Assembly (NCBI GenBank): GCA_029855935.1
Contig: JAGSHN010000017.1
Span: 1-64,000 of the forward strand
Reading direction: 5' to 3'
DNA: 64,000 bases
Source: Candidatus Thorarchaeota archaeon
Lineage (GTDB): Archaea; Asgardarchaeota; Thorarchaeia; Thorarchaeales; Thorarchaeaceae
Within the stretch, counting starts at the first letter, position 1. The number at the start of each line of letters is the position of its first letter. Both the position numbers and the translations under genes were made by a program. The notes below the pieces were generated by a model. The model did no database searches. It saw nothing but the letters and a program-made list of their open reading frames with translations, and had not been told where the DNA came from. Below are positions 6,176 through 26,627 of this stretch, in pieces.

Positions 6176-7675
6176 TCAGCCAAACAGCTGGCTTGCCGCT
6201 ATGTTGGCATAGTCGAGGACGATGCTGGGATTGATGAAGAGGACTAGGACACCAATGACACCAAGCGTGGCGGCAACAAGCGGTCCACGCGCAAGGCGCA
6301 GTCGCTCCGCGTCCTCAGGAGGGGCCATATAGCACACCCTAAGGACACGCAAGTAGTAGCCGAGCGACAGGACGGAGTTCAGAGTACCTATCAGCGCGAG
6401 CCACCACATCCCGACCTCGATTGCACTTCCGAAGAGGAATATCTTCGATAGCAGCCCAGCAGTCGGAGGCATCCCTGCGAGCGAGAGCATCAACACCGCA
6501 AGCAAGCCAGAGGCGAATGGGGCTCGTGAGGACAGCCCCACAAGCTCGTCATACGTGACCTGACGTCTGAGGCGAACCGTCAGCGCCCAGACGAGTATGA
6601 AGGCTGAGGTCTTCATCAGCGCGTGAACGAACGCGTGAAACATCGCGGCTGCAGCGCCGAACTGCGTACCGACAGCAAGACCGATGAACAGATAGCCCAT
6701 CATCGCGATGCTGGAGTACGCAAGCATGCGCATGATGTTCTGCTGACGAAGTGCCAGAATGTTGCCTATCAGCATCGTCAGGATTGACACAAGGACGATG
6801 AGGGGCATCCACTGCAGTCGCACGACGATGAACCCGACGATCATTATCCGCATCAGCGCACCCACACCAGCCTTCTTCGTGCCGCCCGCCAGGAATGCTG
6901 CGAGACTCCCGTCCGCGGAGCTGTACGTGTCCGGCACCCACATCCAGCCCGGAAAGGCTCCTATCTTGAAGCCAAAGGCGATGACAAAGAGCACCATTGC
7001 CAAGAGGGATGTGGCCACTGCAGACAGCTCGAGCGTGGGCGAGGAGAAGTACGACTGGAGCGCCGCTCCGATGGCCGCTATGTCCGTCGTCCCGGTGAGT
7101 CCGTAGAGCAAGGCGATACCGAACAGCATCAGCACCGTGGCGAGCAACCCCATCACGAAGTACTTCACCGCACCATCGACGGCAGCCCGACTCGGACCAA
7201 GCGCGGCAAGGACATAGGTCGGCATCGACATCAGCTCCCAAGCGAGGAACAGTGCCACAAGGTCGGTCGCCATCACGGTCCACATCGTGCCACCAATCGA
7301 GATCAGCAGCAACGAGTGAAACGTGGCCCGGTCGCCATAGAAGGTCGTGCTTGAGAGCAGCACAAGGAAACCGACAACCAGGATTATCCAGATGAACAGG
7401 TCGGCAAAGTGACTGCGCGCGAAGAGCCCGCCAAAAGAGGACCCGTAGACATCATTGTCGATGAGGACGGTCTCCAGCCCTGTGAGCAACAGGCCAATGG
7501 CACTGACAGGCAGTGGATTTGTTCGCTGACCGACAGCGAGAGCAATCACGCCAAAGGCGATAATGGTGAAGACGGGCACCGACCCGAGCCAGTCGGCAGG
7601 GATGTTACCTACAAGCCACTGTGTAAACGGAGAGAACACTGTTCTGACGAGTTGAGCAAGGACCGACAGTATCAC
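6176..7675 (-). CDS. nuoN: Complex I antiporter-like subunit NuoN
   Basis: Membrane subunit of the proton-pumping arm, about 14 TM helices and 499 residues (E. coli NuoN is 485). The pump residues are present: Glu in LAWELMSMPTYV on TM5 and Lys in GFKIGAFPGWMWVPD on TM7, with the central Lys pair in GGTKKAGVGALMR. It is the last gene of the operon. The start is GTG at 7675 overlapping the nuoM stop (GTGA), with GGAGGTG eight bases upstream. The overlap implies translational coupling. Confidence 0.93.
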   Translation of the reverse strand: MILSVLAQLVRTVFSPFTQWLVGNIPADWLGSVPVFTIIAFGVIALAVGQRTNPLPVSAIGLLLTGLETVLIDNDVYGSSFGGLFARSHFADLFIWIILVVGFLVLLSSTTFYGDRATFHSLLLISIGGTMWTVMATDLVALFLAWELMSMPTYVLAALGPSRAAVDGAVKYFVMGLLATVLMLFGIALLYGLTGTTDIAAIGAALQSYFSSPTLELSAVATSLLAMVLFVIAFGFKIGAFPGWMWVPDTYSSADGSLAAFLAGGTKKAGVGALMRIMIVGFIVVRLQWMPLIVLVSILTMLIGNILALRQQNIMRMLAYSSIAMMGYLFIGLAVGTQFGAAAAMFHAFVHALMKTSAFILVWALTVRLRRQVTYDELVGLSSRAPFASGLLAVLMLSLAGMPPTAGLLSKIFLFGSAIEVGMWWLALIGTLNSVLSLGYYLRVLRVCYMAPPEDAERLRLARGPLVAATLGVIGVLVLFINPSIVLDYANIAASQLFG

Positions 7676-9193: not shown

Positions 9194-11422
9194 TCAGATC
9201 ACCCCCAGGGAGACGAACAGCATAATCAGGAACAGCACGAGGCCGAATATGACGACGGCCACGTAGTCGTTGATGCGGCCTGTCTGAATCTCCTGACTCT
9301 CATCAGATACTCGGTAGCCGGCAGTGCCAATACCCTCAGCGAGCCCGTCAACCACGTGGTCATCGAACCACCGGAGCCTTGTGGAGGCGCCCTTGGCCGC
9401 ATCTGCCGACTTGAAGTCGATGCCGTCGATGATGTGGTCATCAATACGCGCTCTGTACCAGTTGACGAAACGCAGGAACTGATAGAGAATCCAGTAGTAC
9501 AGCTCGTTGATGTACCACCTGTGGCGGAGGAACGTGTGGACCCTGCGCAACAGACCTCTCTCACCGACAACGTTGTTCGGCCGGTCAGCATTCTTGATGT
9601 AGAGTACGTAGCTGGGAACAGCACCAAGGAAGAGCGCGCCGACGGTGAGCGCAAACGGGAACAGCCCCGTGGTGAACTTCGCGACAATCATCTCGGTGAG
9701 GACCTCGGTCCACATCTCCATCGTCAGCGGACCCTCCTCTGCCAGTATCGCCTGCACGAACGGGTAGACCAGAAAGGCGACCACAGTGAAGGCCGCAAGG
9801 AGATACAGCGGGACCATCATGGCAGGACCGGGGTCGTGGGGTACTGCGTGATGATGTCCGGCCTCCTCATCTAGCGGACCGGTCTCCTCCTCACTGTGCT
9901 CTGTAGAGTGCGCAGCCTCAAACTTCGGCGGACCATAGAATGTCAGGCCCATCAGTCGGATACTGTAGAAGATGGTGCAGGCGGCGGCGAGGACCGCAAA
10001 GGCGAACAAGATCCACCCGAGAGTCTCGTGTAGGGCCAGCTCGTACGAGTACTCAATGATCGAGTCCTTCGACCAGAAGCCTGAGAACGGAGGAATACCG
10101 GAGAGGGCGAGGACACCGACCCACATCACCTTGAATGTCTTGGGCATGTACTCTTTCAGACCGCCCATCTTGGTGACGTATTTTGAGTGGATGGCGTGAA
10201 TGACTCCTCCCGAGGCGAGGAACAGCAGCGCCTTGAACGCACCGTGGCTGATGACGTGGAGTATTCCGGCCGCGAAGGCTGGCTCATAGTGTGAGAGGAG
10301 ACCGCCAGTGCCTATCGCCAGCATCATGTAGCCGAGCTGACTCAATGTTGAGAACGCGAGGATCTGCTTCAGCTCGTTGGAGACCATTCCCATCGTGGCT
10401 GTCATCAGAGCAGTGATTGCACCAATGATTGCAACGATCGTAAAGAATGACGACGCAGCCTCAATGCCTACGAGCTGAAGTGGTGAGAGGAGAGCCTCAC
10501 TGTGGGAGACCTCCGAGGCCGAGGCGATCGTGACGAGAAACCGTGCAGTGATGTAGACACCTGCCTTGACCATAGTCGCCGCGTGGATGAGCGCGGAAAC
10601 CGATGTCGGGCCAGCCATCGCCTCGGGGAGCCAGACCTGCAGCGGAAACTGACCGGACTTTCCGATGGCCCCTGCAAAGATCAGCAGGAATGTGGGCAGG
10701 ACAAGTCCCGTGGCGGCCAGCACCTGCCACCAGTTCTGATAGTTCTCGGCCATCAATGAGAACGAGAAGGTGCCGGTGAAGGCGTAGAGGACCAGAATGC
10801 CACCGAGCATAAAGGCGTCACCGATGCGCGTGACAATGAAGGCCTTCGTACCGCACTGCGTGTTGTATTCGCCCTCGGTCTCATATTGGAGCAGTGGATT
10901 GGAGTATTCAATGCCGTCAGGCTCCCTCTCCGGTGGATTTCTCTTGTCATTCCAGAAGCCGATCAGTCCGTAGGAACAGAAGCCCATTATCTCCCAGCCG
11001 ATAAAGGCGATGAGGAGGTTGTTGCTGATGACGAGTGTGAGCATCCCACCGCCAAAGACGAGCATCAGGAAGAAGAACCTGTCACGGTCCTCCTCACCAG
11101 CCATGTACTCTGTGGAGTAGACGTAGATGAGGAAGCACAGCGTGCTCGCGAGGACCGTCATGATGACGGACAGTGGGTCTAGGAGAACCTCGAAGTTCAG
11201 CCCGAGCGACGGAATCCACGGCCAGCTGGTGGGACCCTTAGGAGAACCTATGTCGTAGAGCAGCGACCACGCGAGGATCATTGTGACGCCCATGAACAGC
11301 GCTGGTGTCCAGTCTCGAAGACGGTCGCTGAAACGTCCAAATACGGGGACGAGCAGCGCACCCACGAAGGGCAGCACGAGGAGGAGATAATATGGTAGTC
11401 CGAACAGCATCTCTTGGCTCAC
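9194..11422 (-). CDS. nuoL: Complex I distal antiporter-like subunit NuoL with extended lateral helix
   Basis: 742 residues, clearly longer than E. coli NuoL (613). TM5 Glu (FIGWEIMGFCSYG), TM7 Lys (GKSGQFPLQVWLPEAM) and the TM8 MVKAGVY block are intact. Extra length lies in loops (for example an acidic/His-rich EEETGPLDEEAGHHHA loop) and in the C-terminal lateral-helix region, where IDDHIIDGI and FDDHVVDGL repeat 26 residues apart (about 9335-9450). Canonical NuoL has one such motif in the helix that runs along NuoM and NuoN. The start listed is GTG 11422, directly after the upstream stop; ATG 11410 with GAGGTG nine bases upstream is an equally good start and would remove four residues. Confidence 0.93.
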   Translation of the reverse strand: MSQEMLFGLPYYLLLVLPFVGALLVPVFGRFSDRLRDWTPALFMGVTMILAWSLLYDIGSPKGPTSWPWIPSLGLNFEVLLDPLSVIMTVLASTLCFLIYVYSTEYMAGEEDRDRFFFLMLVFGGGMLTLVISNNLLIAFIGWEIMGFCSYGLIGFWNDKRNPPEREPDGIEYSNPLLQYETEGEYNTQCGTKAFIVTRIGDAFMLGGILVLYAFTGTFSFSLMAENYQNWWQVLAATGLVLPTFLLIFAGAIGKSGQFPLQVWLPEAMAGPTSVSALIHAATMVKAGVYITARFLVTIASASEVSHSEALLSPLQLVGIEAASSFFTIVAIIGAITALMTATMGMVSNELKQILAFSTLSQLGYMMLAIGTGGLLSHYEPAFAAGILHVISHGAFKALLFLASGGVIHAIHSKYVTKMGGLKEYMPKTFKVMWVGVLALSGIPPFSGFWSKDSIIEYSYELALHETLGWILFAFAVLAAACTIFYSIRLMGLTFYGPPKFEAAHSTEHSEEETGPLDEEAGHHHAVPHDPGPAMMVPLYLLAAFTVVAFLVYPFVQAILAEEGPLTMEMWTEVLTEMIVAKFTTGLFPFALTVGALFLGAVPSYVLYIKNADRPNNVVGERGLLRRVHTFLRHRWYINELYYWILYQFLRFVNWYRARIDDHIIDGIDFKSADAAKGASTRLRWFDDHVVDGLAEGIGTAGYRVSDESQEIQTGRINDYVAVVIFGLVLFLIMLFVSLGVI

Positions 11423-11423
11423 C

Positions 11424-12935
11424 TCACGGAACTATGTTCAACAGGCCCTGCGTGGCCCCGGCGATGACGTGTACGGCGACATCTGGAAAGACACCGAAGA
11501 ACACAATCAGCGCACCGAGCAACACCATTGGAATTGTCATCGACCTCGGCGCGTCCCTCACCGACTCAAGGTTGGTCGGCAGCGGGCCAAGGAACACCTT
11601 CATCACGAAACGCAGCATATAGCCAGCACTGACGATTGTGCTGGATACGGCAAGAATAGACAGCACGAAGAACGGCATACTGCCAATTCCTGCAGGCCCG
11701 AGAAGAGCAGCCTGAAAGCCGCCATTGAACATCATCCACTCACTGGCAAATCCTGAGAGCGGTGGCACTCCAGCGATGCTGAACGCCCCAACAGCCGCTG
11801 TGAATGCAGTTACCGGCATCCTGTTGGAGAGACCTCCCATCTCTTCGATGTTTCGAGTCCCGGTCTCGTGAATCACCGCGCCGGCGGTCATGAAGAGCAG
11901 CCCCTTTGAGAAGGCGTGATTGATGAGATGGAACAGACCGCCCTGCAGGCCGTACGAGGCCATTACACCGAGAGCGAACAGGACGTATCCCATCTGCGAG
12001 ACAGACGAATACGCCAGCAGCCTCTTGATGTCCTTCTGTGCAAGCGCCATCAGACCGCCATAGAACATCGTGAGAACACCCAGCACGCTCACCCAGAACG
12101 ACAGGGCCTGCGCTGCGGCACCGAGCATGATCACTCCGAACCTGACGAGGGCGTATGCACCAGTCTCAATCATCGCACCTGACAGGAGTACGGACACTGG
12201 TGTCGGGGCCTCGGCGTGGACTGGCGGGAGCCACCAATGGATTGGAAACACCGCCATCTTGACGAGAAAGCCAGCTGCCAGGAGTATGAATATCAGCTTC
12301 ATAGTGCTCAGAGCCATTTCTGATGTGAGGATCACACCGATGTCGGTCATTACAAAGGAGCCGGTGATGGCGTACAGTAGAGCGAATCCCGCAAGGATGG
12401 CCAGCGCACCTGACTGAGTGTAGAGCCAGAACTTCATCGCCGTGCGCTTGCGGGTCTCTGGAATGCCCCAGAACAGAATCAGGAAGTACGACGGGACGAG
12501 CATCAGCTCCCAAGCCATGAAGAACTCCACAAGGTTGGTCGCCAGTGTGACCCACTGCATACCCATTATGAAGAACAGAAGGTTGGAGAAGAATGTCCCT
12601 CTGTTCTCTGTGTGGCTCGTGTAGCCGATGGCATAGATCACGGAGAGAAAACCCAGGATAACAACTGCAAACGTGATTGGGAACGCAACGCCGTCGAGTA
12701 GAAGACCAAAGCTGCCCAGCACTGAGGACCACTCGACGACCTCCATTATGGGCTCATTGAAGACGACTATGTGGTAGAATGACGGCAACATCAAGAGCAT
12801 TGACAGGCCGGAGAAGACGGCGGCTGCAGTGCCAGCACGTTGCTCCAATGCTCCACGAAAGATGTAGATGAACAGTGCGCCGAGGAACATCACTATCAGT
12901 GATAGTGACATCAATGAGAATCCACTCAACAGCAT
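11424..12935 (-). CDS. Additional antiporter-like subunit of complex I (second NuoM, MrpD-like)
   Basis: 503 residues, about 14 TM helices. It carries the complete proton-channel set: FFMAWELMLVPSYF (TM5 Glu), KMAVFPIHWWLPPVHAEAP (TM7 Lys) and RLLAYSSVSQMGYV. The TRNIEEMGGLSNRMP segment is typical of NuoM/MrpD/HyfB-type proteins. Standard complex I has one each of L, M and N; this is a fourth member, located between nuoI and nuoL. ATG 12935 follows the nuoI stop directly and has AGGAGG nine bases upstream. Placement inside the operon and tight coupling argue that it is a structural subunit rather than an independent Mrp antiporter. Confidence 0.88.
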   Translation of the reverse strand: MLLSGFSLMSLSLIVMFLGALFIYIFRGALEQRAGTAAAVFSGLSMLLMLPSFYHIVVFNEPIMEVVEWSSVLGSFGLLLDGVAFPITFAVVILGFLSVIYAIGYTSHTENRGTFFSNLLFFIMGMQWVTLATNLVEFFMAWELMLVPSYFLILFWGIPETRKRTAMKFWLYTQSGALAILAGFALLYAITGSFVMTDIGVILTSEMALSTMKLIFILLAAGFLVKMAVFPIHWWLPPVHAEAPTPVSVLLSGAMIETGAYALVRFGVIMLGAAAQALSFWVSVLGVLTMFYGGLMALAQKDIKRLLAYSSVSQMGYVLFALGVMASYGLQGGLFHLINHAFSKGLLFMTAGAVIHETGTRNIEEMGGLSNRMPVTAFTAAVGAFSIAGVPPLSGFASEWMMFNGGFQAALLGPAGIGSMPFFVLSILAVSSTIVSAGYMLRFVMKVFLGPLPTNLESVRDAPRSMTIPMVLLGALIVFFGVFPDVAVHVIAGATQGLLNIVP

Positions 12936-13367
12936 TCAACGAAACCTCCTGCCTCGCCATTCAAGCGGCTCGCGTTCCAGTGTCTCGATTCTCTCTGGGT
13001 CGTAGTGCAAGGCCTCACGTGACGGCTCGCTCAGGTCGACCACTGGAGTGTGGAACAGGGCATTGAACCGGCACGCCTCCACGCACAGGCCACAGAAGAT
13101 GCACCTCGTGTAGTCGAAGTAAAGGGCGGCGTCCTTCTCGTACTTGCGGTCGCTCTTGTCGATGCGGATGGCCACGACCGGGCACGCGCGGACGCACTGA
13201 CCGCACGCCGTACAGTTCTCTCGAATGTGTATGTGGCGGCCACGTGTGCGCTCCGGGTACTCGCGGTCCTCAAAGGGATAGAAGTACGTGAAGGGTCGTG
13301 AGAACGTCTGACGCACGATGTGTTTCAGCACGCGAAAGATATCGCCCAGAACTCTAATCATTCCCAT
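12936..13367 (-). CDS. nuoI: Complex I Fe-S subunit NuoI
   Basis: 143 residues with two 4Fe-4S motifs, CTACGQCVRACP and CIFCGLCVEAC, that hold clusters N6a and N6b between the input module and N2. The N-terminal amphipathic stretch (LKHIVRQTFSRPFTYFYPFE) is the usual membrane-surface anchor. I use ATG 13367, preceded by GGAGGATAGAG, instead of the in-frame start at 13412, which would overlap nuoH. With no NuoE/F/G encoded here, NuoI would be the natural port for ferredoxin-type electrons. Confidence 0.92.
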   Translation of the reverse strand: MGMIRVLGDIFRVLKHIVRQTFSRPFTYFYPFEDREYPERTRGRHIHIRENCTACGQCVRACPVVAIRIDKSDRKYEKDAALYFDYTRCIFCGLCVEACRFNALFHTPVVDLSEPSREALHYDPERIETLEREPLEWRGRRFR

Positions 13368-13371
13368 CTCT

Positions 13372-14553
13372 CTATCCTCCTCCTGCGAGAATGCCAGCGA
13401 GCCCCGGCACATACGCCAGCACGAGCAGCGCGACTATGATGTTCAGCATTGACAGCGGGAGGAGATACCTCCAGCTGTACTTTACTATCTGGTCCTGTCG
13501 AATCCTGTAGAAGGACGACGTAACGATGATCATCCCGAAGAGGACAACAAGGAACTTGAGGAAGAAGTTCAGGAACGGCGGAAAGCCGGGAACGCCGTAC
13601 TCGCCGCCGAAGAAGAGCGCCACGATAAGCGCGGAGTAGAGGACCTGCTTGGCGAACTCGGCAAAGTAGGTGAGCGTGAAGTAGACTCCCGAGAGCTCGG
13701 TCCTCCAGCCGAATATGACCTCCGAGTCCGCCACAGGGGCGTCAAAGGGCACCAACCCTATGCTGATGACTGCGGAGACGAGGAAGGTGACAAAGCAGAC
13801 GGGCAGCAGAACGACGTACCAGAGGTGCGTCTGGGCCTGCGATATCTGCAGCACGCTGAGCGAGCCTGCAAGAAGAGCGGGACCAACTGAGGACACTATG
13901 AGCGGTATCTCGGCCGCGAACTGGTTACTTGCCGCCCGAAATCCACCGACTAGGGTGTACTTCGAGCCGCTTATCCAGCCCGTCAGCAAAGAGATGACAG
14001 GCACGGCCGTCAGGAACGCGAACACGAGCACGAGGCTGACGGAGAGGTCGGTTATCACCCACTCGCTGGTCCACGGTACAAAGGCGAAGGGCGTGAGCAC
14101 GACTAGCAGTAGGAAGGACGGGAGAAGCCGATACATCCACCGCTTCGCTCCACGCGGGATGATTATCTCCTTCGAAATGAGCTTGATTGCGTCGGCGAAG
14201 ATCTGAAGGCCTCCGTACTTTCCGATGTGGAAAGGACCACGACGAGCCTGTACACGGCCCCACACCTTTCGTGTGAACCACACGTCAAAGATTATGAGCA
14301 TCAGGACGAAGACGAGACCGGGGAAGACTATTGCCTTGAACAGCAGCAGCCAGTTGTCTAGCGCGAGATTCCACGCCCAGACAAAGACACCCCAAGCCCA
14401 GTTGAACACGCCTACTGCCAGCGTGTATACCCAGACAATGATACCATGGATCCAGTCCGGGATTCCACGCAGCCAGCCAATGATGTCAATGTTGTCGAAC
14501 AGTTGCAACAGCAAGGCGTTCAATGTCATCCCTCCGTTCACCGGTCCCACCAT
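13372..14553 (-). CDS. nuoH: Complex I membrane subunit NuoH
   Basis: 393 residues, longer than E. coli NuoH (325) because of an N-terminal extension of about 60 residues rich in Trp and hydrophobics. The family blocks are present: RRGPFHIGKYGGLQIFADAIK and SKEIIIP at the quinone-chamber entrance, and GLVPFDAPVADSEVIFGW with ELSGVYFTLTYFAEF. NuoH links the peripheral arm to the pumping arm. Its start (ATG 14553) overlaps the nuoD end by 16 bases; ATG 14529 is an alternative. Confidence 0.92.
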   Translation of the reverse strand: MVGPVNGGMTLNALLLQLFDNIDIIGWLRGIPDWIHGIIVWVYTLAVGVFNWAWGVFVWAWNLALDNWLLLFKAIVFPGLVFVLMLIIFDVWFTRKVWGRVQARRGPFHIGKYGGLQIFADAIKLISKEIIIPRGAKRWMYRLLPSFLLLVVLTPFAFVPWTSEWVITDLSVSLVLVFAFLTAVPVISLLTGWISGSKYTLVGGFRAASNQFAAEIPLIVSSVGPALLAGSLSVLQISQAQTHLWYVVLLPVCFVTFLVSAVISIGLVPFDAPVADSEVIFGWRTELSGVYFTLTYFAEFAKQVLYSALIVALFFGGEYGVPGFPPFLNFFLKFLVVLFGMIIVTSSFYRIRQDQIVKYSWRYLLPLSMLNIIVALLVLAYVPGLAGILAGGG

Positions 14554-15674
14554 CCTGGGTACGGGTCCAGACTGCCGAACACGACAATGAAGTCAGCAAA
14601 CGTCGACCCGGGGACCAGATGCTTCAGGCTGTAGTAGGAGGCGAAGCACGGCCCGCGAATCTTCGCTCGGTACGGTGTCTGCGCCTTCTCTGTCGTCTTG
14701 AGCCAGACGGTCGTCACTCCCCGTGTCCCCTCGACCCGGCCATAGGCCTCTCCGGCCGGGAGACGGTTCGTCTTGGCCCGCGCCTTGGGGTCGACGATAG
14801 GCCCCTCAGGTATCTGCGGCAGCAGCTGCCGGATTATGTTGATGGATGTCTCGACCTCAAGGAATCTCTGGACCATCCTGTCGTACGCATCGCTCTGACC
14901 GGGATGGTCCGGATTATCAACAACGGGCACCTCCCAGTCGACAAGGTCATACGCCAAGTTGAGGTCAGGCCAGTCCTTGCGAAGATCCATAGGCACGCCA
15001 CAGGCCTTGATGTTCGGTCCACTGAGGCCCCACCTGAGAGCATCCTCGTAGCTGAATAGTGCAATGCCCTTGGTCCGCATTCTGAAGGTCGGGCTGCGGA
15101 GAAGCATGTCTTTGAACTTTGGCAGATGCTGTTCCAGTCGCTGTAGCGCCCTGTCAAGCTTCTTGAGGACCTTCTCATTGAAGTCGTACCTGACGCCACC
15201 GGGAGTGCTGAAGGAGACTGCGTGCCGTGAGCCGGTCAGCTCCTCGAACGTGTCCAGGAAGAACTCTCGGTCCACCCATGGCCATAGTGTCATAGCAAAC
15301 AGACCGAGCTCTGCCGAGAACTGACCCCACCAGAACTGTAGCGAGTGTATCCTGCTGGCCTCCATCATTATCGTTCTGAGGACCTTCGCACGTTCGGGCA
15401 CCTCCACGCCCGCGATCTGCTCCACTGCGCTGATGTACGGGTACTCGGCAAGAAACGCCTCAAGCATACACATCCTCTCAAGTACGAGAGGACCCTGTTT
15501 GAACGTACGAAACTCAAGGACCTTCTCTGCGGAACGATGGAAATAGCCAGCGTGAGGGTCACACTCCACAATGAAGTCGCCCACCACCGTGAGCTTGGCG
15601 GCCCAACCGTGGGCCGACACATGCTGGGGCCCGAACCACATCTCAACAGCTTCGTCGCGTATGTCGGGGCTCAT
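14538..15674 (-). CDS. nuoD: Complex I 49-kDa-type subunit NuoD with altered quinone-site residues
   Basis: 378 residues. WFGPQHVSAHG near the N terminus keeps the histidine (H22) equivalent to Thermus Nqo4 His38. Gapless alignment of the following 40 residues (PHAGYFHRSAEK, EFRTFKQ, LERMCMLEAF) against the Thermus sequence I know places Cys69 and Met70 where Asp86 and Tyr87 stand; Tyr87 is the residue that hydrogen-bonds the quinone head group. The C terminus ends LDPYPGWWDR, as in the family. There are no NiFe-ligating CxxC pairs, so it is not a hydrogenase large subunit. ATG overlaps the nuoC stop (ATGA). Confidence 0.93.
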   Translation of the reverse strand: MSPDIRDEAVEMWFGPQHVSAHGWAAKLTVVGDFIVECDPHAGYFHRSAEKVLEFRTFKQGPLVLERMCMLEAFLAEYPYISAVEQIAGVEVPERAKVLRTIMMEASRIHSLQFWWGQFSAELGLFAMTLWPWVDREFFLDTFEELTGSRHAVSFSTPGGVRYDFNEKVLKKLDRALQRLEQHLPKFKDMLLRSPTFRMRTKGIALFSYEDALRWGLSGPNIKACGVPMDLRKDWPDLNLAYDLVDWEVPVVDNPDHPGQSDAYDRMVQRFLEVETSINIIRQLLPQIPEGPIVDPKARAKTNRLPAGEAYGRVEGTRGVTTVWLKTTEKAQTPYRAKIRGPCFASYYSLKHLVPGSTFADFIVVFGSLDPYPGWWDR

Positions 15675-16195
15675 TCCTTGTTCGCCTCCTGTCTGCGTGG
15701 TCTTGGCTGCGGTAGTCCAGACTCGGCCAGCCTCCTCCGGTCTGGCTGGAAGCTCTTCCTGAGCGGATACTTCCCGACCAGCTCATCAGGCAGAAGCAGT
15801 GGTCTCAGGTCGGGATGGCCTCTGAAGCCGATCCCGAACATCTCGTGAGTCTCCCGTTCGTGCCACTCAAGGCCTGGGAATATGTCACAGACCGAGTCAA
15901 TCTCCGGCTCCTCACCCTCCAGCTCGACCCTGAGCTGCACAAGTACTCTGATATCGTGTGACCAGAAGTAGTAGATAAGCTGATAGCGATCATCCTGTAG
16001 GTCGACGCCGAACATAGACTCAGGTAGAGCGTGAGGGAGCAGCTCATCGACGGACTTGACGACATCACGAATCATCCCTGCAGGTACTGTGAGTTCTGCG
16101 GTCTGGCCCTCGATCTTGTGGGCCTCAACACCGGGATGACGACGCATCAGCTCGGCCGCTACCTCAGACGGTGTAGTCGGTGGCGCCAACCTCAC
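15671..16195 (-). CDS. nuoC: Complex I 30-kDa-type subunit NuoC
   Basis: 174 residues, a stand-alone NuoC not fused to NuoD. The diagnostic block FPGLEWHERETHEMFG followed by FRGHPDLRPLLLPDE is present. NuoC scaffolds NuoD and NuoB in the peripheral arm. It overlaps nuoK at its start (ATGA) and nuoD at its end. In a canonical operon nuoB would stand immediately upstream; here nuoK does. Confidence 0.92.
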   Translation of the reverse strand: MRLAPPTTPSEVAAELMRRHPGVEAHKIEGQTAELTVPAGMIRDVVKSVDELLPHALPESMFGVDLQDDRYQLIYYFWSHDIRVLVQLRVELEGEEPEIDSVCDIFPGLEWHERETHEMFGIGFRGHPDLRPLLLPDELVGKYPLRKSFQPDRRRLAESGLPQPRPRRQEANKE

Positions 16196-16509
16196 GACAC
16201 CTCCTCCGTTCTAGTGACCGGGATCCCCAGGTCCACGGTCCTGTATCTGCGATGGTAGAGAAGCATCAGGACCATTGCAAGGGCGGTCTCGGCTGCGGCC
16301 ACTGCGATGACTAGGATGACAAGCGCCTGGGCCGTGAATGTGAAGAATGGTCCGTACAACGCCAGCGCAATGAGGGCGATGTTGACCCCATTGGCCATGA
16401 TCTCGGCACTGATCAGTATCCTGATGAGATTGCGCTTGGAGACCATCCCGTAGGCACCCATACCAATCAGTATGAGGGCCAGCACCATGTACCAGCTCAG
16501 CGGAACCAT
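16192..16509 (-). CDS. nuoK: Complex I membrane subunit NuoK
   Basis: 105 residues, three TM helices (about 5-25, 30-50, 60-85). The helix-2 glutamate is visible in ILISAEIMANGVN and the helix-3 glutamate in VAAAETALAMVL; both belong to the fourth proton path. Placed upstream of nuoC rather than after nuoJ near the operon end, it shows the gene order is rearranged. Confidence 0.92.
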   Translation of the reverse strand: MVPLSWYMVLALILIGMGAYGMVSKRNLIRILISAEIMANGVNIALIALALYGPFFTFTAQALVILVIAVAAAETALAMVLMLLYHRRYRTVDLGIPVTRTEEVS

Positions 16510-17163
16510 CTACTCAACCTCCTTCTCCTCCTTAACGTCACGTGCCTCAAGGACTGGCATCCCAGATGTGGCGCTCTCGGGCTCACTCTCCTCAGGGATC
16601 GGGAGGGAGAAGTCTTCCGTTCTCGGACGAAGCTGTTCCTCCTTCTCCATCCTTATGATCGCGACAGAACCGACTAGCCCAACGAAGAGAAGCATAGCAA
16701 TTATCTCGAGATAGACAGCGTGCGTTCCCCAGAGCCACTCAGCAAGTCCCTCGAGACTCTGCGACAACGGGATGTGTTCAGGCGGGATGCTCTCCTGCCA
16801 TGGAAACAGCAGCGCGATGAGCGCTGATATGACTACAACCGAGATGGAGAGCACCAAGCCCACCTTCCGCATTCGGGGTGAATGTAGCACTTCCAGTGTC
16901 GAGTCCTGTGCCCTTGGGATGAGTAGTACACCAAAGATGATCAGTGCTGTTATGCCACCAGTGTAGATGGCTATCTGGAGCCCTGCGACGAACGGGGCTT
17001 CTAGCAGGATGAATATCCCTGCAACCCCCGTGGCCATAAAGCCGAAGAAGAACGCAGCATAGACGATGTCCCTATGCTCGAGCGCCAAGTAGGCAAGGAC
17101 TATCACCACACCCGCGATGAGCAGGAACTCGATATTCTCGAAGAGTATCTCAGCCTCTTGCAT
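16510..17163 (-). CDS. nuoJ: Complex I membrane subunit NuoJ
   Basis: 217 residues with five TM helices; IYTGGITALIIFGVLLI is the conserved TM3 with the pi-bulge region (usually YxGAIMVLFLFV), here with Gly-Gly in place of Gly-Ala. A charged tail of about 45 residues follows the last TM. I use ATG 17163, which has GGAGGG about 11 bases upstream and sits just after the nuoA stop; the frame is open further to 17217 inside nuoA. Confidence 0.9.
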   Translation of the reverse strand: MQEAEILFENIEFLLIAGVVIVLAYLALEHRDIVYAAFFFGFMATGVAGIFILLEAPFVAGLQIAIYTGGITALIIFGVLLIPRAQDSTLEVLHSPRMRKVGLVLSISVVVISALIALLFPWQESIPPEHIPLSQSLEGLAEWLWGTHAVYLEIIAMLLFVGLVGSVAIIRMEKEEQLRPRTEDFSLPIPEESEPESATSGMPVLEARDVKEEKEVE

Positions 17164-17170
17164 CGTGAAC

Positions 17171-17605
17171 TCATCCCTCCGAATGCAACCCCGTGGCCTG
17201 CTCCTTGGCAGCCTCATAGAGGGCTACCACCTCGGGACCCGTCATCTGCGCCTTTGGTAGAATCTTCAGAACAAACATCACAGCAGCCATTATGACCGCA
17301 GCAAAGACTACGACCTGCCACACAACGAACACCGAGGTCCTCAGTGCTGAGACCGCATACAGCCACATGAAAGCGCCCATCACGTCCACTACGAGAAACA
17401 GTACCGTGTAGATGATGTAGCTGTACGGAAAGCTGATCCGAGCCGGACCGAGAGGCTCCTCGCCACATTCGTAGGTGGATGTCTTCTCCGAGTTCTGGAG
17501 GACATGCGGACGCAGGACCCACGATGCAAGCAGCATCACGATTACGAGTGCTGTGACAAGGCCCATCCATAAGAGTAGAGGCACAAAGTCGATGAACAGT
17601 CGCAC
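17171..17605 (-). CDS. nuoA: Complex I membrane subunit NuoA
   Basis: 144 residues, three TM helices. STYECGEEPLGPARISF is the conserved first loop with the Cys used to follow the active/deactive state in homologues, and VVDVMGAFMWLYA is TM2 with its acidic residue. GTG 17605 is preceded by GGAG about ten bases upstream. It is the first gene of the complex I operon; no nuoB follows it. Confidence 0.93.
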   Translation of the reverse strand: MRLFIDFVPLLLWMGLVTALVIVMLLASWVLRPHVLQNSEKTSTYECGEEPLGPARISFPYSYIIYTVLFLVVDVMGAFMWLYAVSALRTSVFVVWQVVVFAAVIMAAVMFVLKILPKAQMTGPEVVALYEAAKEQATGLHSEG

Positions 17606-19216: not shown

Positions 19217-19800
19217 ATGTCCGCTCGTTTTCTTGCTGATGTAGGCTGCTGTTTCTCGGAGATGGGAGGACCCAGCCGCAAGAGGAATGTGGAAACCTGG
19301 GCCATTCCCCGAGGAGCCACAGGTTGTCCATATTGTATATGGAAGAGTCGCGTTTATTGGTTGTGTAGAGTGCGGATGACATGCGGCTAGTGTGCCATTG
19401 CCAGGGGCTGAAGCACAGCAGATACAATCATGGGTAGCACGTACCCCTGCGTCCCCGCATCCGGCGGTCCAGACAATGGCTCCGAAACACCTGTCCCTCT
19501 GATGCCAGCCACTCAGACGCAAGGTCCTGCCGCGCGGAGTAGTGACCTTATAGCGGAATGCCTCCCGCTAGCGCAGGACCATTTCCATTTCCATTTCCCT
19601 CAGTTGTCCTCCCAAATGCTCTAAGCAGGCTATCGACTGTTCTCGCAGTTCCCATCCGCTGCTGGCCGCCAGCACTGGAATCGGTGCAGTTCGCTATGGG
19701 ACCCGTGGTCGCCATTGTGTTATGGGGCGCACTCAGCCACATCGCTTGGAGAAAGTACTGTGCAGGACGTCCCAATAATAGGGGGACCACAACGACGGAC
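19217..19800. other. Gap without a recognisable gene
   Basis: Frames here are short and of poor codon quality. Seen: an A/T block CGTTTATTGG near 19347 that could be a promoter for a small RNA, and hexamer repeats TTTCCATTTCCATTTCCC near 19582-19600. No tRNA or CRISPR structure noticed. Confidence 0.3.
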
Positions 19801-19810
19801 AGATTAAATA
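19801..19810 (+). promoter_or_regulatory. TATA-like element of the small membrane protein gene
   Basis: AGATTAAATA is centred about 52 bases before ATG 19858, implying a leader of about 25 bases. Confidence 0.4.
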
Positions 19811-19857
19811 GGTGCATCAATCTTCGACTGTCCAGTGGTGACCGAGAAGTGTCGTCG

Positions 19858-20199
19858 ATGGACAGAAGGCGCTACACCTACTACGTCATATTGTTTCTCG
19901 GACTTGTCCTAGTGAGCCTCTATTTTCTAGTACTCTATCAATGGGTGGGACTGAGCAGTCTTGCCTCGCTATTGCTTGTTGGCAGTGGTGGCCTGTTCAT
20001 CCTGCTCGCACTCGTTGCCCCCTTTGGCCGCTCTAGACCTGCAAGACTCGGACTCACTGCCTTGTGCGGTCTCATTGCTGGAACTCACGCATATCTCGAT
20101 ATCATATTGCTGCAGGGTCAGATGGGGACTGTGATGTTCATATGGATTGGCCTGGGCACAATGCTCGTCACTGCACCACTGCGATGGCTCAAAGAGTGA
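19858..20199 (+). CDS. Small four-helix membrane protein of unknown function
   Basis: 113 residues with four predicted TM helices (about 8-28, 33-55, 62-80, 88-105) and little else. Positive residues at the N terminus (MDRRR) and between helices 2 and 3 suggest N-in topology. The frame opens at 19558, but the upstream part is unlike protein and the TATA-like element lies inside it, so I use ATG 19858; GTG 19849 is an alternative. It converges with the membrane gene at 20251. No family recognised. Confidence 0.65.
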   Translation: MDRRRYTYYVILFLGLVLVSLYFLVLYQWVGLSSLASLLLVGSGGLFILLALVAPFGRSRPARLGLTALCGLIAGTHAYLDIILLQGQMGTVMFIWIGLGTMLVTAPLRWLKE

Positions 20200-20250: not shown

Positions 20251-20820
20251 CTACTCGGATTCGTCCCTCTTGCCCGTCTCGGCAGTCGACTCCTCAGTCC
20301 TCTCTATAGGCTCTCTCGCTTCTCCCTCTTTCTCACTGCCTCTCGTCTCCTCCGGCTCCTCCACGAACACCTCAACAGCCGAACGCACTGCTGGGCGTCC
20401 AGCGTACGAGAGTCTTGAGTAGTCAAGTAGGCCTGGCGTGACCGCATCCTCAAGAGGTGGTATCATTGCCAGACCGCCTGCCGTGACCAGAGCGCCGATG
20501 ATCCCCCAGAAGACGAGTCCAAGGCCACCGCCCCACTCGGCCGGCACAGACATAGAAAAGATTGCGTAGAACAGTGATGCCACAACGGAGAAGCCGAACA
20601 TCGTCGTCTTGGCCTTGCCGCGAACTGGTCGAAGGTATCCCACGTAGAGGAAGACCATCACCGGTGGCAGACCCAGCACGGGGAGGAGCACTGCGGTCAG
20701 GATGTTGAGCGTGATCGTACCAGTCAGCCACAGATAGCCAAAGCTGAAGTAGAACGCGCCCAGTATGGCCATTCCAAGCCAGACCATGCAGTAGTAGTCG
20801 GTGTCCTCTCGTAGATGCAT
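20251..20820 (-). CDS. Membrane protein cotranscribed with the GlcD-NuoB fusion
   Basis: 189 residues: an N-terminal TM (WLGMAILGAFYFSFGYLWL), three more hydrophobic helices to about residue 115, and a C-terminal cytoplasmic-type tail rich in Glu/Arg/Thr (EEPEETRGSEKEG onward). It starts 22 bases after the fusion gene, with GGGAGGAG ahead of its ATG, so the two should share a message. No heme or quinone motif is visible and I do not recognise the family. Its position suggests it anchors or stabilises the fused FAD-NuoB protein at the membrane; this is inference. Confidence 0.7.
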   Translation of the reverse strand: MHLREDTDYYCMVWLGMAILGAFYFSFGYLWLTGTITLNILTAVLLPVLGLPPVMVFLYVGYLRPVRGKAKTTMFGFSVVASLFYAIFSMSVPAEWGGGLGLVFWGIIGALVTAGGLAMIPPLEDAVTPGLLDYSRLSYAGRPAVRSAVEVFVEEPEETRGSEKEGEAREPIERTEESTAETGKRDESE

Positions 20821-20842: not shown

Positions 20843-22783
20843 CTATCTCAGGAAGCCCATGGCATCCTGGTTCTCGTATTTCATCTGCCAGTGCGTCGTG
20901 CCAGCACGGATCTTGTTCTGAAGTATCAGATGGGCTCGTATGAAGTCTGACGGCTTCGGCGGGCACCCCGGTAGATAGACATCCACAGGAACGACCTCCT
21001 CGGGGTCCTTGACAAGAGAGTAGCCGTCCCAGAACATGCCGCCGCTCGCAGCACACTGACCGAACGATATCACAAACTTTGGCTCAGGCATCTGCTCGTA
21101 GATTCGGCGCAGCCTGGGCGCCATCTTCTTCGTCAGCGAACCGGATATCCACAGCACATCAGTCTGACGAGGACCAAACAGCGGAAGCATACCGAACCGC
21201 TCAGTGTCCCACCGTGGAGCCACAGCGGCGGACCCCTCGACCATGCAGCAGCCCAGACCGAACTGTACTGGCCAGGGACTGTGAGCACGACCCCATCGGA
21301 GAAGCCACTTGATCGGTGGCAGGTTCTGCAGCCACTTCAACACGATTGGCCCCATCCGGCCGAAGCCGTTCCTCAGCAGATCGTAGCCAAGCCACATGAA
21401 GTACTTGCCGACTCTGAGTACAAGAGGCAGCCAGTAGGCAAACACCTTCCCCGGGTTCGCCACCTCATTGGGGTCGAACTTGAGCTTGGCGGCACGAATC
21501 CGTGCAAGGCGCCTCTTGCCGAAGTACTGTGGAGCATAGTTCGCCAGCCAGATGCCGGTCGAATGAACGTGACCCCCGTGCCTCTGTGCAATCTTGAAGA
21601 CCACGAAGCTCTGAACCCAAGATAGCATGAAGCCGAACCGCCGCTCGTCCTCAAGGAAGTAGCCCATTAGCGTGACCCCGTTCTTCGATGTCACGTAGCC
21701 GTCCATGCCTGCCCGCGCTGAGGCCTGCTCGAACTGAAAGTCGTCGAGGATGAGCATCAGATTCTCCAATGGCGCAAAGGCCTGTCCGACGACCAGCGAC
21801 GGGCCGAGCTTCTTGATCTTCATTGGATAGAAGCGCTGCTCCCACTCGTGTTCCGCAACGTGCTCGTCGTAGACTTTGCCCTTCAGCTCCTTCGCCACCC
21901 TGCGTACAACCTCGAGGCCCTCCTCGGTCTCCTCATCGGAACCATCGTACGCAAAGAGCGCGACACAGTGATGAACGGGATAGGGATAGGGGCCCGGGCC
22001 CTCCCAGATCTCCTTCTTGAGGTCGACGTACTTGCTCTCCTTGAACTTGATTGTGTGTGGGAGCGGACCCTCCTCCAGAATCTTCTCGATTGCAAATGTC
22101 ATCAGGTAGTTCTCAGGAAAGCTGACGACGATGCACTTGATGGGGGTGAGAGCTTTGACCTTGAGCGTGACCTTGGTGATTATCCCCAGAATGCCCTCGG
22201 TGTCGCAGAACAGGTCGGTATCGCGGCTGCGCACAATTCGCCCATTGGGGAGGACCACCTCGACCTCCTCGACGTTCTCGTTGATGTTGCCGTACTTCAG
22301 CGAGCCGATACCGTCACCACCCTGAGCCACCCAACCTCCAACCGTGGCCGAGATTCCCGATGAGGGATAGGTGCGCAGGTCCAGTCCCTGACGATTGAGC
22401 TCAAACTGCAGGTGCGCCCAGGAGATTCCGGGCTCCACTGTGACCGTCAGGCCCTCGGGGTCGACACTCAACACGCGATCCATCCTACGCATATCAACAA
22501 TGATGCCGCCCTTTCTGGGAATCGCACCGCCGTAGCCTGAGGTGCCAGCGCCACGTGGGACAATTGGCACGCGCTCCTCATTGGCGAACTTGAAGAGCGC
22601 GACAATCTCGTCCACCGACTCGGGCTGCACAAGTGCATCAGGTTTGTTGTTCATCAGCCAGCCGACCTGCTTGGGCAGTGAACCTACATCCATACTGTGG
22701 ATGTGAAGCTCGTACTTCTCTGTGATCAGCCGGTCACCGAATATCGCTTTCAGGCGCTCCAATTGATCCTTCTTCAGTCCCAT
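20843..22783 (-). CDS. GlcD-type FAD oxidase fused to complex I subunit NuoB
   Basis: One uninterrupted frame of 646 codons. Residues about 35-225 are an FAD-binding type 4 domain (VPIVPRGAGTSGYGGAIPRKGG, the PSSGISATVGGWVAQGGDG block); about 230-450 are the FAD-oxidase C domain ending FDPNEVANPGKVF, as in glycolate oxidase GlcD and D-lactate dehydrogenases. A hydrophobic/amphipathic linker (about 450-490) leads to a complete NuoB: FGLGCCMVEG (C512, C513), ISFGQCAASGGMF (C577) and YLPGCPPKP (C607), the four ligands of cluster N2, plus the SLTKKMAPRLRRIYEQMP helix. The complex I operon lacks nuoB, so this must be its NuoB if the complex assembles. FAD would sit near N2, offering direct input from a 2-hydroxyacid or similar donor. 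Start is ATG 22783. Confidence 0.93.
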   Translation of the reverse strand: MGLKKDQLERLKAIFGDRLITEKYELHIHSMDVGSLPKQVGWLMNNKPDALVQPESVDEIVALFKFANEERVPIVPRGAGTSGYGGAIPRKGGIIVDMRRMDRVLSVDPEGLTVTVEPGISWAHLQFELNRQGLDLRTYPSSGISATVGGWVAQGGDGIGSLKYGNINENVEEVEVVLPNGRIVRSRDTDLFCDTEGILGIITKVTLKVKALTPIKCIVVSFPENYLMTFAIEKILEEGPLPHTIKFKESKYVDLKKEIWEGPGPYPYPVHHCVALFAYDGSDEETEEGLEVVRRVAKELKGKVYDEHVAEHEWEQRFYPMKIKKLGPSLVVGQAFAPLENLMLILDDFQFEQASARAGMDGYVTSKNGVTLMGYFLEDERRFGFMLSWVQSFVVFKIAQRHGGHVHSTGIWLANYAPQYFGKRRLARIRAAKLKFDPNEVANPGKVFAYWLPLVLRVGKYFMWLGYDLLRNGFGRMGPIVLKWLQNLPPIKWLLRWGRAHSPWPVQFGLGCCMVEGSAAVAPRWDTERFGMLPLFGPRQTDVLWISGSLTKKMAPRLRRIYEQMPEPKFVISFGQCAASGGMFWDGYSLVKDPEEVVPVDVYLPGCPPKPSDFIRAHLILQNKIRAGTTHWQMKYENQDAMGFLR

Positions 22784-23007: not shown

Positions 23008-23067
23008 GTGGGCAAGGGCCGCTTTCCCCGGTCAAAGAACGACAACAGGTCAAAGAGGCAGGCCCCA

Positions 23068-24294
23068 ATGCACTTCGAGATGCTTGAACAGTACAACCTT
23101 CAGGACATGGCCTTCATCTGTGCCCAGTGCAGCTTCTGTCAGGTGGGTCACGGTGCGTGCCCGACCTACAAGGTCAAGCGCCGGGACAGCTACTCAGGCA
23201 AGGGCAAGATGATCATCGCACGAGCGCTACTTCAGGGTAGGCTCTCACCCAGCGAGGCACTGGAGGGTCTTCGCGATGCCGTGTTCGGATGCACCCTCTG
23301 TGGCGGATGTGAGGAGGTGTGTCAAGTAGACATACCCTTTGTCCAGATCTACCAACTTCTGCGTGGTGAGTTCCTCAAGCTGAACCTCTGGCCGGAGCAG
23401 CTAAAGATGATGAAGAAGACCCTGATCAAGACACGGAACGTGCAGGGCCAGCCGAACATCGACCGTGTGGAGGGATGGTCATACTGGCATCCCGATGAGG
23501 ATGCGCTCTTGGAGAAAGTGGGGCAGCCTGCGGAGACCGGGTTCTTCGTCGGATGCGGTTCATCATTCCGCGGTATTGCCATTCAGGCGACGATTGCCAC
23601 AACTCTGATTCTCGATGACGCCGGCATCGAATACACGCTTCTTGGAGAGGACGAGTGGTGTTGCGGAGCCCCGCTGATCATGACTGGCGACTTCGAGGGC
23701 GCGAAGGAGTTCGCTCTACACAACATCGAGGAGTTCCGCAAGCTCGGTGTGAAGCGGATTGTGACAAATTGTCCAGGCTGCTACAAGATGTGGCATCACG
23801 AGTATCACCAGCTTCTCGGCATTGATCACGAATTTGAGATCGTGTACGGTCCCGTACTCTACGCCAAGCTAGTAGAGGAGGGCAAGCTGGAGGGCAAGAT
23901 TAAGGACCTCCCGGTCTCGGTCACATTCCACGACCCGTGCGATGCTGGGCGCAACAGTGGCATCTATGAGGAGCCCAGAGTTGTACTGAAGAACATACCC
24001 GGACTCAGATTTGAGGAGCTTCCTCACAACCGGGAGAACTCGTACTGCTGCGGTTCAGGAGGTGTTCTGAGAGCACAGGACGAGGAGTTCTGTCTGAAGA
24101 TAAACGAGCTGAAAGTACGCGACATCGAGCAGACGGATGCGGACTGGGTGATCTCCGCCTGCCCGTCATGTGTGGACTTCATCAACACAGGACTACCAGA
24201 GGCCGGGTCTGAGAAGAAGTCCAAGGACCTCGCCGTGCTGCTTGCAGAGGCTCTCGGACATACCTGGGACGGACTCGACGACGTCTACGGCTGA
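23068..24294 (+). CDS. CCG-domain Fe-S oxidoreductase (GlcF/HdrD-like), likely partner of the GlcD-NuoB fusion
   Basis: 408 residues. The N-terminal part has two Fe-S sites: C18-x2-C21-x2-C24 with C31 after a longer-than-usual six-residue gap, and CTLCGGCEEVC. Two CCG domains follow: DEWCCGAP with NCPGCYKMW, and HDPCDAGR, YCCGSGG, SACPSC. This is the plan of GlcF, LldE/LutA-related proteins and HdrD, which pair with GlcD-like flavoproteins or reduce heterodisulfides via a noncubane cluster. It is divergent from the fusion gene, and the pair resembles a glcD-glcF couple. ATG 23068 is chosen because of the TATA-like element at 22999; the frame opens at GTG 23008. No TM helices. Confidence 0.85.
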   Translation: MHFEMLEQYNLQDMAFICAQCSFCQVGHGACPTYKVKRRDSYSGKGKMIIARALLQGRLSPSEALEGLRDAVFGCTLCGGCEEVCQVDIPFVQIYQLLRGEFLKLNLWPEQLKMMKKTLIKTRNVQGQPNIDRVEGWSYWHPDEDALLEKVGQPAETGFFVGCGSSFRGIAIQATIATTLILDDAGIEYTLLGEDEWCCGAPLIMTGDFEGAKEFALHNIEEFRKLGVKRIVTNCPGCYKMWHHEYHQLLGIDHEFEIVYGPVLYAKLVEEGKLEGKIKDLPVSVTFHDPCDAGRNSGIYEEPRVVLKNIPGLRFEELPHNRENSYCCGSGGVLRAQDEEFCLKINELKVRDIEQTDADWVISACPSCVDFINTGLPEAGSEKKSKDLAVLLAEALGHTWDGLDDVYG

Positions 24295-25331
24295 GGCGCC
24301 GGGGGAGGTCGCAGCAGAGTCCTGACTGCCAGCCCTACAAAGACGAGTAGCATCACAGCAACGAGAACGTATACCAGTAGTGGCGTCCTCATGTCAATCA
24401 CAACATAGCCAACCGTCAGGTACAGTCCCGTCAACAGATGGGTCATAATCGTCCCGGCGTTCGCAGGTATCATTCTCAGGGGCTCATCGTAATGTCGTCG
24501 TGCAGTCCTGATTGCAATGGCCGCGATAGGAACCGTGAGCAGACCATAGAGCTGCGTCCACGGAACAAGGCCAACGAACGTGAACAACACTATGACAGCA
24601 TAGGTGACGATCATCAGACCCGCATACACAGCTGATGCTCGCCTCCTACCCAGACGCACTACAGCCGTGTACTTGCCAGCAGCCCTGTCGCCCTCCATAT
24701 CTGGAAACTCATTGATGAACAACACCAGAGAGATGAGTAGTGCCACCGGGAGCGAGGCGAAGACTGGTTCCCAGTCAAGGGCCTGTGTCTGCACGAAGAA
24801 GGCTCCAAGCGTCATCAGGATGCCAAAGTTCAGCCCGATGAATATCTCTCCAATCCCCCGACTCACAAGCCTGACTGGGGGTGCTGTGTAGAAGAAACCA
24901 GATGCTGCACCAATCAGCCCAAGGACAACTATCACCCAACCGAGGTGGAGATAGAGGTAGAAGCCGATTGCCACGGCAATGCCGAAGAAGACGAATGACC
25001 CCGCGAGGACCTCGCCGGGACTCAACAGGCCCTCCTGTATCACCCGGCTGCCTCCACTGAAGGGTCGAATGAAACCCTCGTTGACGTTATCGGCGCCACT
25101 CTTGTAGTCGAAGTAGTCATTGGCGATGTTTGCGCCGAGATGCAGACAGGCGGCCGCCACAAGAGTGAGGAAGAAAAACCAGAGGTTCAGGCCGTGCGTC
25201 CGCTCCCAAGCAATTGCGGTTCCTAGCAGCACGGGAACGAGTGACGCCGTCAAGAAACTCAACCTCATCTCACGTATCCAGATTCGAAGCCTCCCGGGCT
25301 TCGGCTCTACTGGGGCTCTCTCGCCAGTCAT
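24285..25331 (-). CDS. UbiA-family prenyltransferase, MenA-like
   Basis: 348 residues with about nine TM helices. The first Asp-rich motif NDYFDYKSGAD and the following NEGFIRPFSGGSRVIQEG are typical of MenA, which prenylates 1,4-dihydroxy-2-naphthoate in menaquinone synthesis; the second motif is NEFPDMEGD. Other archaeal UbiA members make ether lipids (DGGGPS), and that role cannot be excluded, but the FSGGSR block favours MenA. ATG 25331 lies about eight bases after the start predicted from the minus-strand element CTTTTATTC. Its 3' end overlaps the CCG gene by ten bases, convergently. Confidence 0.82.
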   Translation of the reverse strand: MTGERAPVEPKPGRLRIWIREMRLSFLTASLVPVLLGTAIAWERTHGLNLWFFFLTLVAAACLHLGANIANDYFDYKSGADNVNEGFIRPFSGGSRVIQEGLLSPGEVLAGSFVFFGIAVAIGFYLYLHLGWVIVVLGLIGAASGFFYTAPPVRLVSRGIGEIFIGLNFGILMTLGAFFVQTQALDWEPVFASLPVALLISLVLFINEFPDMEGDRAAGKYTAVVRLGRRRASAVYAGLMIVTYAVIVLFTFVGLVPWTQLYGLLTVPIAAIAIRTARRHYDEPLRMIPANAGTIMTHLLTGLYLTVGYVVIDMRTPLLVYVLVAVMLLVFVGLAVRTLLRPPPAPQP

Positions 25332-25359
25332 TGTGGGTCGACGGAGCAGCAGGCGGGAA

Positions 25360-25369
25360 GAATAAAAGA
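25360..25369 (-). promoter_or_regulatory. TATA-like element of the prenyltransferase gene
   Basis: Minus-strand TCTTTTATTC centred about 34 bases before ATG 25331; this decides the start over the upstream in-frame ATG at 25400. Confidence 0.5.
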
Positions 25370-25486
25370 TTGATGGAACAGGGCCGGCATAGTAACGCAT
25401 TCGGGGTCACACCGCGCACGATCCCCTGGGCCTACACCAAGAGACAATGCCCTTCAGGGCGGATTCCACATTGTCCTCAGGACAAG

Positions 25487-25496
25487 TACTTTAAGA
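25487..25496 (+). promoter_or_regulatory. TATA-like element of the polyprenyl synthase gene
   Basis: TACTTTAAGA centred about 54 bases before ATG 25545; the start has GAGAGGT seven bases upstream. Confidence 0.45.
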
Positions 25497-25544
25497 GGCG
25501 GTCGTCACGTAGCACTGTCGCCTGTTATCCGGAGAGGTAGCGTC

Positions 25545-26612: not shown

Positions 26613-26627
26613 GAACGGGACATGGTC

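Follow-up and report, generated by a model that had tools for sequence, protein, structure and literature searches.

Complex I is among the best-studied of enzymes, and N2, the last of its clusters, is normally coupled to quinone only. In a stretch of DNA of 64,000 nucleotides from a member of the Thorarchaeota (the window: positions 1 to 64,000 of contig JAGSHN010000017.1, assembly GCA_029855935.1), the subunit that holds N2, NuoB, shares one open reading frame with a flavoprotein of the GlcD type. Thorarchaeota belong to the Asgard archaea, relatives of the eukaryotic ancestor. The locus raises the question of whether such a fusion is genuine and, if so, by what route electrons might enter or leave the complex to which it belongs.

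A GlcD-type flavoprotein fused in frame to NuoB

A single uninterrupted frame on the minus strand (20843-22783) encodes 646 residues, in which a GlcD-type FAD domain is followed by a linker of about 50 residues and then by NuoB. The gene and its parts are as follows.

20843..22783, minus strand: GlcD-NuoB fusion gene, 646 aa (open frame; Pfam; 31/47 family genomes)
21443..22783, minus strand: GlcD-type FAD domain, residues 1-447 (FAD fold intact; motifs of hydroxyacid dehydrogenases missing)
21290..21442, minus strand: linker, residues 448-498 (constant in length, with amphipathic helices; under purifying selection)
20846..21289, minus strand: NuoB domain, residues 499-646 (N2 ligands C512, C513, C577 and C607)

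Pfam places FAD_binding_4 at residues 48-185 (E 3e-43), FAD-oxidase_C at 218-447 (2.6e-12) and Oxidored_q6 at 513-617 (5.6e-24), and NCBIfam models of NuoB score above their curated cut-offs (184.7 over 116, and 175.4 over 142.7). Moreover, the four N2 ligands show no variation in an alignment of 19 relatives. The original prediction, made from the window alone, of an FAD flavoprotein fused in frame to a NuoB whose four N2 ligands are all present is therefore borne out, both by this one frame and by the same architecture in the relatives.

When the two-domain architecture was searched for in archaeal genomes, a fusion frame without an internal stop was found in 31 of the 47 genomes of the Thorarchaeota family; 29 of these frames are essentially full length and two are cut at contig ends. 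The genomes concerned are many separately named assemblies, and one is closed, the fusion lying within a single chromosome of 3.16 Mb (CP070761). No stop or frameshift was found in the relatives at the junction (residues 450-490), and the protein measures 645 or 646 aa in 18 of the 19 relatives that were read through, the one exception having a longer C-terminal tail. Outside the family, no fusion was found among 227 Asgard genomes searched, nor in a GTDB-wide scan with two GlcD peptide patterns, which a diverged fusion would escape. Because 31 genomes from separate assemblies share a stop-free frame, with a junction of identical length in the 19 proteins aligned, chance and artefact are excluded, and the fusion is confirmed as a trait of the whole thorarchaeal family. 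The fused arrangement is real, and it is old.

The linker has a fixed length, with no insertions or deletions among the 19 aligned proteins. At a near-saturated synonymous divergence, its pN/pS (residues 448-490) is 0.135, compared to 0.21 and 0.19 for the flavin domains and 0.10 for NuoB. From the end of the flavin domain to the start of the NuoB core, no start codon is common to all genomes. (Internal initiation of NuoB was rejected, as Met463 is found in only 15 of the 19 proteins and Met477 is not conserved.) The low pN/pS of the linker relative to the flavin domains, the lack of indels and the lack of a universal internal start argue that the joint itself is under selection. They also bear on the idea that the frame is an assembly error, or that GlcD and NuoB are made as two separate proteins through an internal start or through cleavage. 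The majority of the genomes are metagenome-assembled, and post-translational cleavage would be compatible with the sequence data; against this stand an identical junction in 31 genomes, among them the single 3.16-Mb chromosome, and a junction that is gap-free, and we consider an artefact or a pair of separate proteins highly improbable.

A complex I operon without nuoB

The nuo operon lies 3.2 kb from the fusion and runs from 17605 down to 6176 in the order A J K C D H I M L M N. The prediction that a nearby operon holds the other core genes and no nuoB was correct: nuoB is absent from 17605-6176, and the membrane arm (A, H, J, K, L, M and N) is all present.

17171..17605, minus strand: nuoA (Pfam)
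16510..17217, minus strand: nuoJ (Pfam)
16192..16509, minus strand: nuoK (Pfam)
15671..16195, minus strand: nuoC (Pfam)
14538..15674, minus strand: nuoD (no Ni ligands; Met at the position of Thermus Tyr87)
13372..14553, minus strand: nuoH (Pfam)
12936..13412, minus strand: nuoI (both [4Fe-4S] sites kept)
11424..12935, minus strand: first nuoM-type subunit
9194..11422, minus strand: nuoL, 742 aa
7672..9192, minus strand: second nuoM
6176..7675, minus strand: nuoN

A separate nuoB of the complex-I type was looked for elsewhere in the source genome (2.97 Mb in 32 contigs). PF01058 matches this genome in six places, one of them the fusion and the other five on other contigs. The strongest of the five (C8) is the small subunit of a group-4 [NiFe] hydrogenase, with CNGC, and the large subunit beside it carries RICGIC and DPCYSC; a further match (L002) resembles a soluble hydrogenase and has hydrogenase-type neighbours. 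Both were rejected as candidates for these reasons. Thus, no separate complex-I nuoB was found in a genome that is 97.3% complete, the three weaker matches (C28 and two on C24, in frames of 308-439 aa) having been compared by score and frame length only. Note that in other Asgard families (G057:C6, G052:C2, G130:C9 and others) NuoB-like domains occur in frames of about 670 aa, which are perhaps B-C-D fusions.

NuoD lacks the RICGIC and DPCxxC motifs of hydrogenases, unlike the large subunit on C8. When compared to Nqo4 of Thermus it retains His38, and Tyr87 is replaced by Met in 35 of 35 thorarchaeal rows (where one genome can appear under more than one accession); among the complex-I sequences compared from other Asgard archaea, three have Leu at this position and one has Tyr. 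Tyr87 is central to quinone binding in complex I. On these alignments, the quinone pocket of NuoD is altered. Both NuoM-type subunits exceed the TIGR01972 cut-off, and together with NuoL and NuoN (6176-12935) they bring the antiporter-like subunits to four, as in the relatives. We found no mention of four such subunits for Asgard archaea in a limited literature search. Having four of them suggests that the pump is driven by a wide redox gap, such as ferredoxin would provide. PF01512 (NuoF) has no match in the source genome, which by this measure has no NADH module (NuoEFG); the same model matches once in each of 10 of the 47 family genomes, always off the contig of the fusion. The best reading of these genes is that the thorarchaeal complex I would be a ferredoxin-type, NuoEFG-less, Fpo-like ion pump. 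Just past nuoN, at 3735-5237 on the plus strand, lies a gene for a 500-aa protein, possibly a terminal reductase, which scores 212.9 against the reductive dehalogenase model TIGR02486 (cut-off 160.35).

The flavin domain keeps its fold and has lost the hydroxyacid motifs

The original prediction named lactate, glycolate or another 2-hydroxyacid as a possible donor. In a structure model built from an 80-row alignment (mean pLDDT 87.3; it supersedes a poor earlier model from 19 close relatives, pLDDT 52), the predicted fold of the flavin domain matches that of mouse D-lactate dehydrogenase LDHD with Z 39.6 and an rmsd of 2.5 Å over 429 residues, and that of LctD from the Ldh-EtfAB complex with Z 36.7, the fold matches listed covering about residues 1-455. 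A sequence search also matches the domain to LctD (E 1.5e-35), and the combined FAD_binding_4 and FAD-oxidase_C fold of the GlcD-type class is present. Missing from the fused domain, on the other hand, are the metal and catalytic motifs HxGDGNxH and GEHGxG. In a HMMER alignment, GHVGDGNFHC of wild-type mLDHD stands opposite GYVTSKNGVT of the fusion, so that the catalytic His405 of the mouse enzyme aligns with Val370 (the second His of the mLDHD stretch was numbered 405 by comparison with the H405A entries). The glcD equivalog TIGR00387 failed by a wide interval, at 154.1 bits against a cut-off of 567.9, and a paralogue elsewhere in the source genome retains His at both motif positions.

With the metal-binding and catalytic residues of these dehydrogenases gone, a 2-hydroxyacid donor is not supported, and by its sequence the fused domain does not appear to be a known hydroxyacid dehydrogenase. 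That it would nevertheless oxidize lactate, glycolate or another 2-hydroxyacid and feed complex I by the classical GlcD mechanism agrees with its D-lactate dehydrogenase fold, but given Val370, the lost motifs and the distance from the equivalog cut-off it is most improbable. The thorarchaeal fusion proteins have an invariant His405 and His407 of their own, and a different activity is therefore possible.

Other GlcD-like genes occur in these genomes. On contig 27 of the source genome, a GlcD paralogue (L098:8358-9782) with the His motifs HFSHMY and SHQHGVG, which we take to resemble those of alkyl-DHAP synthase, adjoins two GlcF-like genes. In a relative with a single contig (G022), four GlcD-like and four GlcF-like genes are arrayed after the fusion region (L036:824-15644); some of these GlcD-like proteins have C-terminal hydrophobic anchors, and HxGDGNxH is found in none.

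A putative GlcF partner and unfused relatives

Around the fusion lie the following further genes.

23008..24294, plus strand: GlcF/HdrD-like Fe-S protein, putative partner (two [4Fe-4S], two five-Cys CCG motifs)
20251..20820, minus strand: small membrane protein of no known family, next to the fusion in relatives
19558-20199, plus strand: small membrane protein of no known family, between fusion and nuoA in many relatives
24285..25400, minus strand: MenA-like prenyltransferase, a linked gene in many relatives (may act in making a lipid carrier)

The GlcF gene is transcribed divergently from the fusion. Its 18 cluster cysteines are all retained by every one of 23 relatives, and it scores below the curated equivalog cut-offs for GlcF (62 versus 333), TfrB (the best, 168.6 versus 385) and HdrB. 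Relatives have GlcF followed by GlcD-NuoB and by one or, often, two small membrane proteins (the second on the opposite strand), after which comes nuoA-J-K-C-D-H-I-M-L-M-N; in some genomes GlcF is 2-5 kb off the fusion. A GlcF orthologue (62% identity or more) is found in 33 of the 47 family genomes and a NuoD orthologue (73% or more, two being fragments) in 32; these genes and the fusion (31) co-occur, the mismatches being fragmented assemblies or the genome TEKIR_14.

TEKIR_14, of the same family, has no NuoD orthologue, and has GlcF together with an unfused GlcD of 498 aa whose tail matches the linker of the fusion up to residue 494. That it keeps both proteins without nuoD indicates that the module can work without complex I. 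In a tree of GlcD, the fused proteins and the unfused TEKIR_14 protein form one clade (100/98) within which the branching order lacks support, so TEKIR_14 could represent either the ancestral state or a truncated relic, the tree favouring neither. In two genomes of another Asgard family, unfused GlcD and GlcF lie beside nuoL-M-N, and the one such GlcD that was measured ends in a transmembrane segment. In a further Asgard family, GlcD and GlcF form one frame of 1070 aa (L076:1547-4759), which supports the view that the two are one functional unit. We infer that a membrane-anchored GlcD-GlcF module, previously linked with complex I, became locked onto NuoB.

Possible routes for electrons through the fused module

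We tentatively favour a reading in which a GlcD-GlcF module (HdrD/EtfD-like) is docked covalently to a complex I driven by ferredoxin, at its N2 end, with output as its likeliest role. Docking as such is well supported and probable; that electrons would flow outward, given docking, we regard as somewhat better than an even guess. In detail, GlcF would bind the fused GlcD domain, which would place the module permanently beside NuoB and N2 at the membrane surface, and the linker, which is amphipathic and not transmembrane, would stand in for the anchor by which unfused GlcD is held in the membrane. Ferredoxin, in its reduced form, would give electrons at NuoI, from where they would reach N2 and exit via the docked GlcD-GlcF to the module's own acceptor (the HdrD-like CCG sites might reduce a disulfide; ETF and a prenyl-lipid carrier are the other candidates). 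This exit would replace or accompany the ordinary reduction of quinone in the NuoD pocket, and the energy released would drive the four antiporter-like subunits. The reading as a whole is supported by the spread of the fusion, the indel-free and selected linker, the co-occurrence with nuoD and GlcF, and the retention of the 18 GlcF cysteines and of both NuoI clusters.

Output is preferred over input because driving four pump-like subunits takes a wide gap in redox potential, because the source genome is without an NADH module, because the quinone pocket of NuoD has Met for Tyr87, and because there is no recognised pathway for a menaquinone headgroup (MqnA/D were found in none of the 47 family genomes, and the MenD matches in the 47 are all below cut-off). 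Moreover, electron transfer from an Fpo-like complex to HdrD has been proposed before, in Methanomassiliicoccales and Bathyarchaeia (PMC6147122, PMC8407382). The original prediction had doubted that the step from lactate or glycolate to menaquinone could pay for the pumping of several protons and had hinted that the flavin could be an output; we judge it right on both points. Against the favoured reading count the position of GlcF 2-5 kb away in some genomes, the TEKIR_14 module without nuoD, and the presence of LctD, which exchanges electrons with EtfAB, among the nearest solved relatives, which makes input from ETF possible.

In such an input arrangement, acyl-CoA dehydrogenases would reduce ETF, the likeliest source, from which GlcD-GlcF would take electrons and pass them to N2 or to the pool of lipid carrier; complex I would then work either in the forward direction, with ferredoxin as co-donor (confurcation), or in reverse, producing reduced ferredoxin. 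Besides the kinship with LctD, EtfAB genes in 37 of the 47 family genomes speak for this, as does the mycobacterial CCG protein EtfD, which connects ETF to menaquinone (PMC13083937). The ETF genes are, however, also present in nuoD-less genomes (such as G013 and G023) and in the source genome lie on contig 21, away from the fusion, and electrons near the potential of quinone would not by themselves suffice to push a pump with four antiporter-like subunits forward. We consider input unlikely, if the most serious of the rivals.

Clustered near the fusion (24285-27827) are the MenA-like prenyltransferase (117.8 versus a cut-off of 102.15), a polyprenyl synthase and a geranylgeranyl reductase. They point to a lipid carrier, so that a quinone-like reduction may persist, which likewise counts against the favoured reading. 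These neighbours would also suit a fusion that is a tether only, keeping two enzymes that reduce or oxidize a lipid carrier together at the membrane with no direct transfer between FAD/GlcF and N2; given the transmembrane end of the unfused GlcD in another Asgard family, NuoB may simply substitute for a membrane anchor. The unusual constraint on linker and junction and the loss of the quinone-site tyrosine in NuoD argue against a mere tether, which we think rather improbable. Conversely, a stricter form of the favoured output reading, in which electrons bypass the quinone pocket altogether, entering from ferredoxin at NuoI and leaving N2 through the docked flavin/HdrD-like module to a disulfide, ETF or a new lipid carrier, is a doubtful proposition as it stands. 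If true, the pump would be a direct ferredoxin:acceptor oxidoreductase in place of a quinone reductase, and a new class of complex I.

Relation to known systems

By most of its core features the thorarchaeal system reads as a complex I in which one subunit is a new fusion. For Sifarchaeia and Jordarchaeia, a complex I of the Fpo-like type that lacks NuoEFG has been described, with ferredoxin as its proposed donor (PMC9723677); the thorarchaeal complex shares with it the core A-D and H-N, the NuoI clusters and, in the source genome, the lack of an NADH module, and differs in the N-terminal flavoprotein on NuoB, the two NuoM and the Met at the quinone tyrosine of NuoD. As in the Fpo-like and HdrD pairing mentioned above, a ferredoxin-type pump adjoins an HdrD-like CCG protein, here GlcF, although in Thorarchaeota the attachment is covalent via GlcD and nothing found here points to a CoM/CoB heterodisulfide as acceptor. 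The flavin domain is like mouse LDHD and LctD of the Acetobacterium Ldh-EtfAB in fold, and unlike them in lacking the metal-binding and catalytic His motifs and in being joined to NuoB. GlcF resembles mycobacterial EtfD in its two [4Fe-4S] and two CCG domains; EtfD, however, is one membrane protein with heme, whereas GlcF looks like a soluble protein, and both of its CCG motifs have the full five Cys. Finally, a 2M complex I with an extra NuoM has been described for Nitrospira (PMC9040806). It too has a second NuoM and four antiporter-like subunits, a likeness by NuoM count; the thorarchaeal complex differs in being archaeal, in having no NADH module and in its fused flavoprotein.

The accessible part of a survey of archaeal fusions names NuoB-C and B-C-D fusions for complex I and not GlcD-NuoB (PMC11237513), and a prokaryote-wide survey of complex I names fused CD and BCD (PMC12361115). 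Our search of the open literature (supplements and subscription papers lay outside it) found no description of a GlcD-NuoB fusion and no paper that joins Thorarchae* with NuoB. The arrangement thus seems unreported so far, as the original prediction had supposed.

An Asgard family has fixed a fusion that joins the N2 subunit to a flavoprotein from outside the complex, and along with it has a second NuoM and has lost the quinone tyrosine. This suggests that electrons enter or leave the thorarchaeal pump by an unusual route. The fusion is a natural test of whether N2 exchanges electrons with a partner other than quinone, and it bears on energy conservation in the archaeal relatives of eukaryotes.
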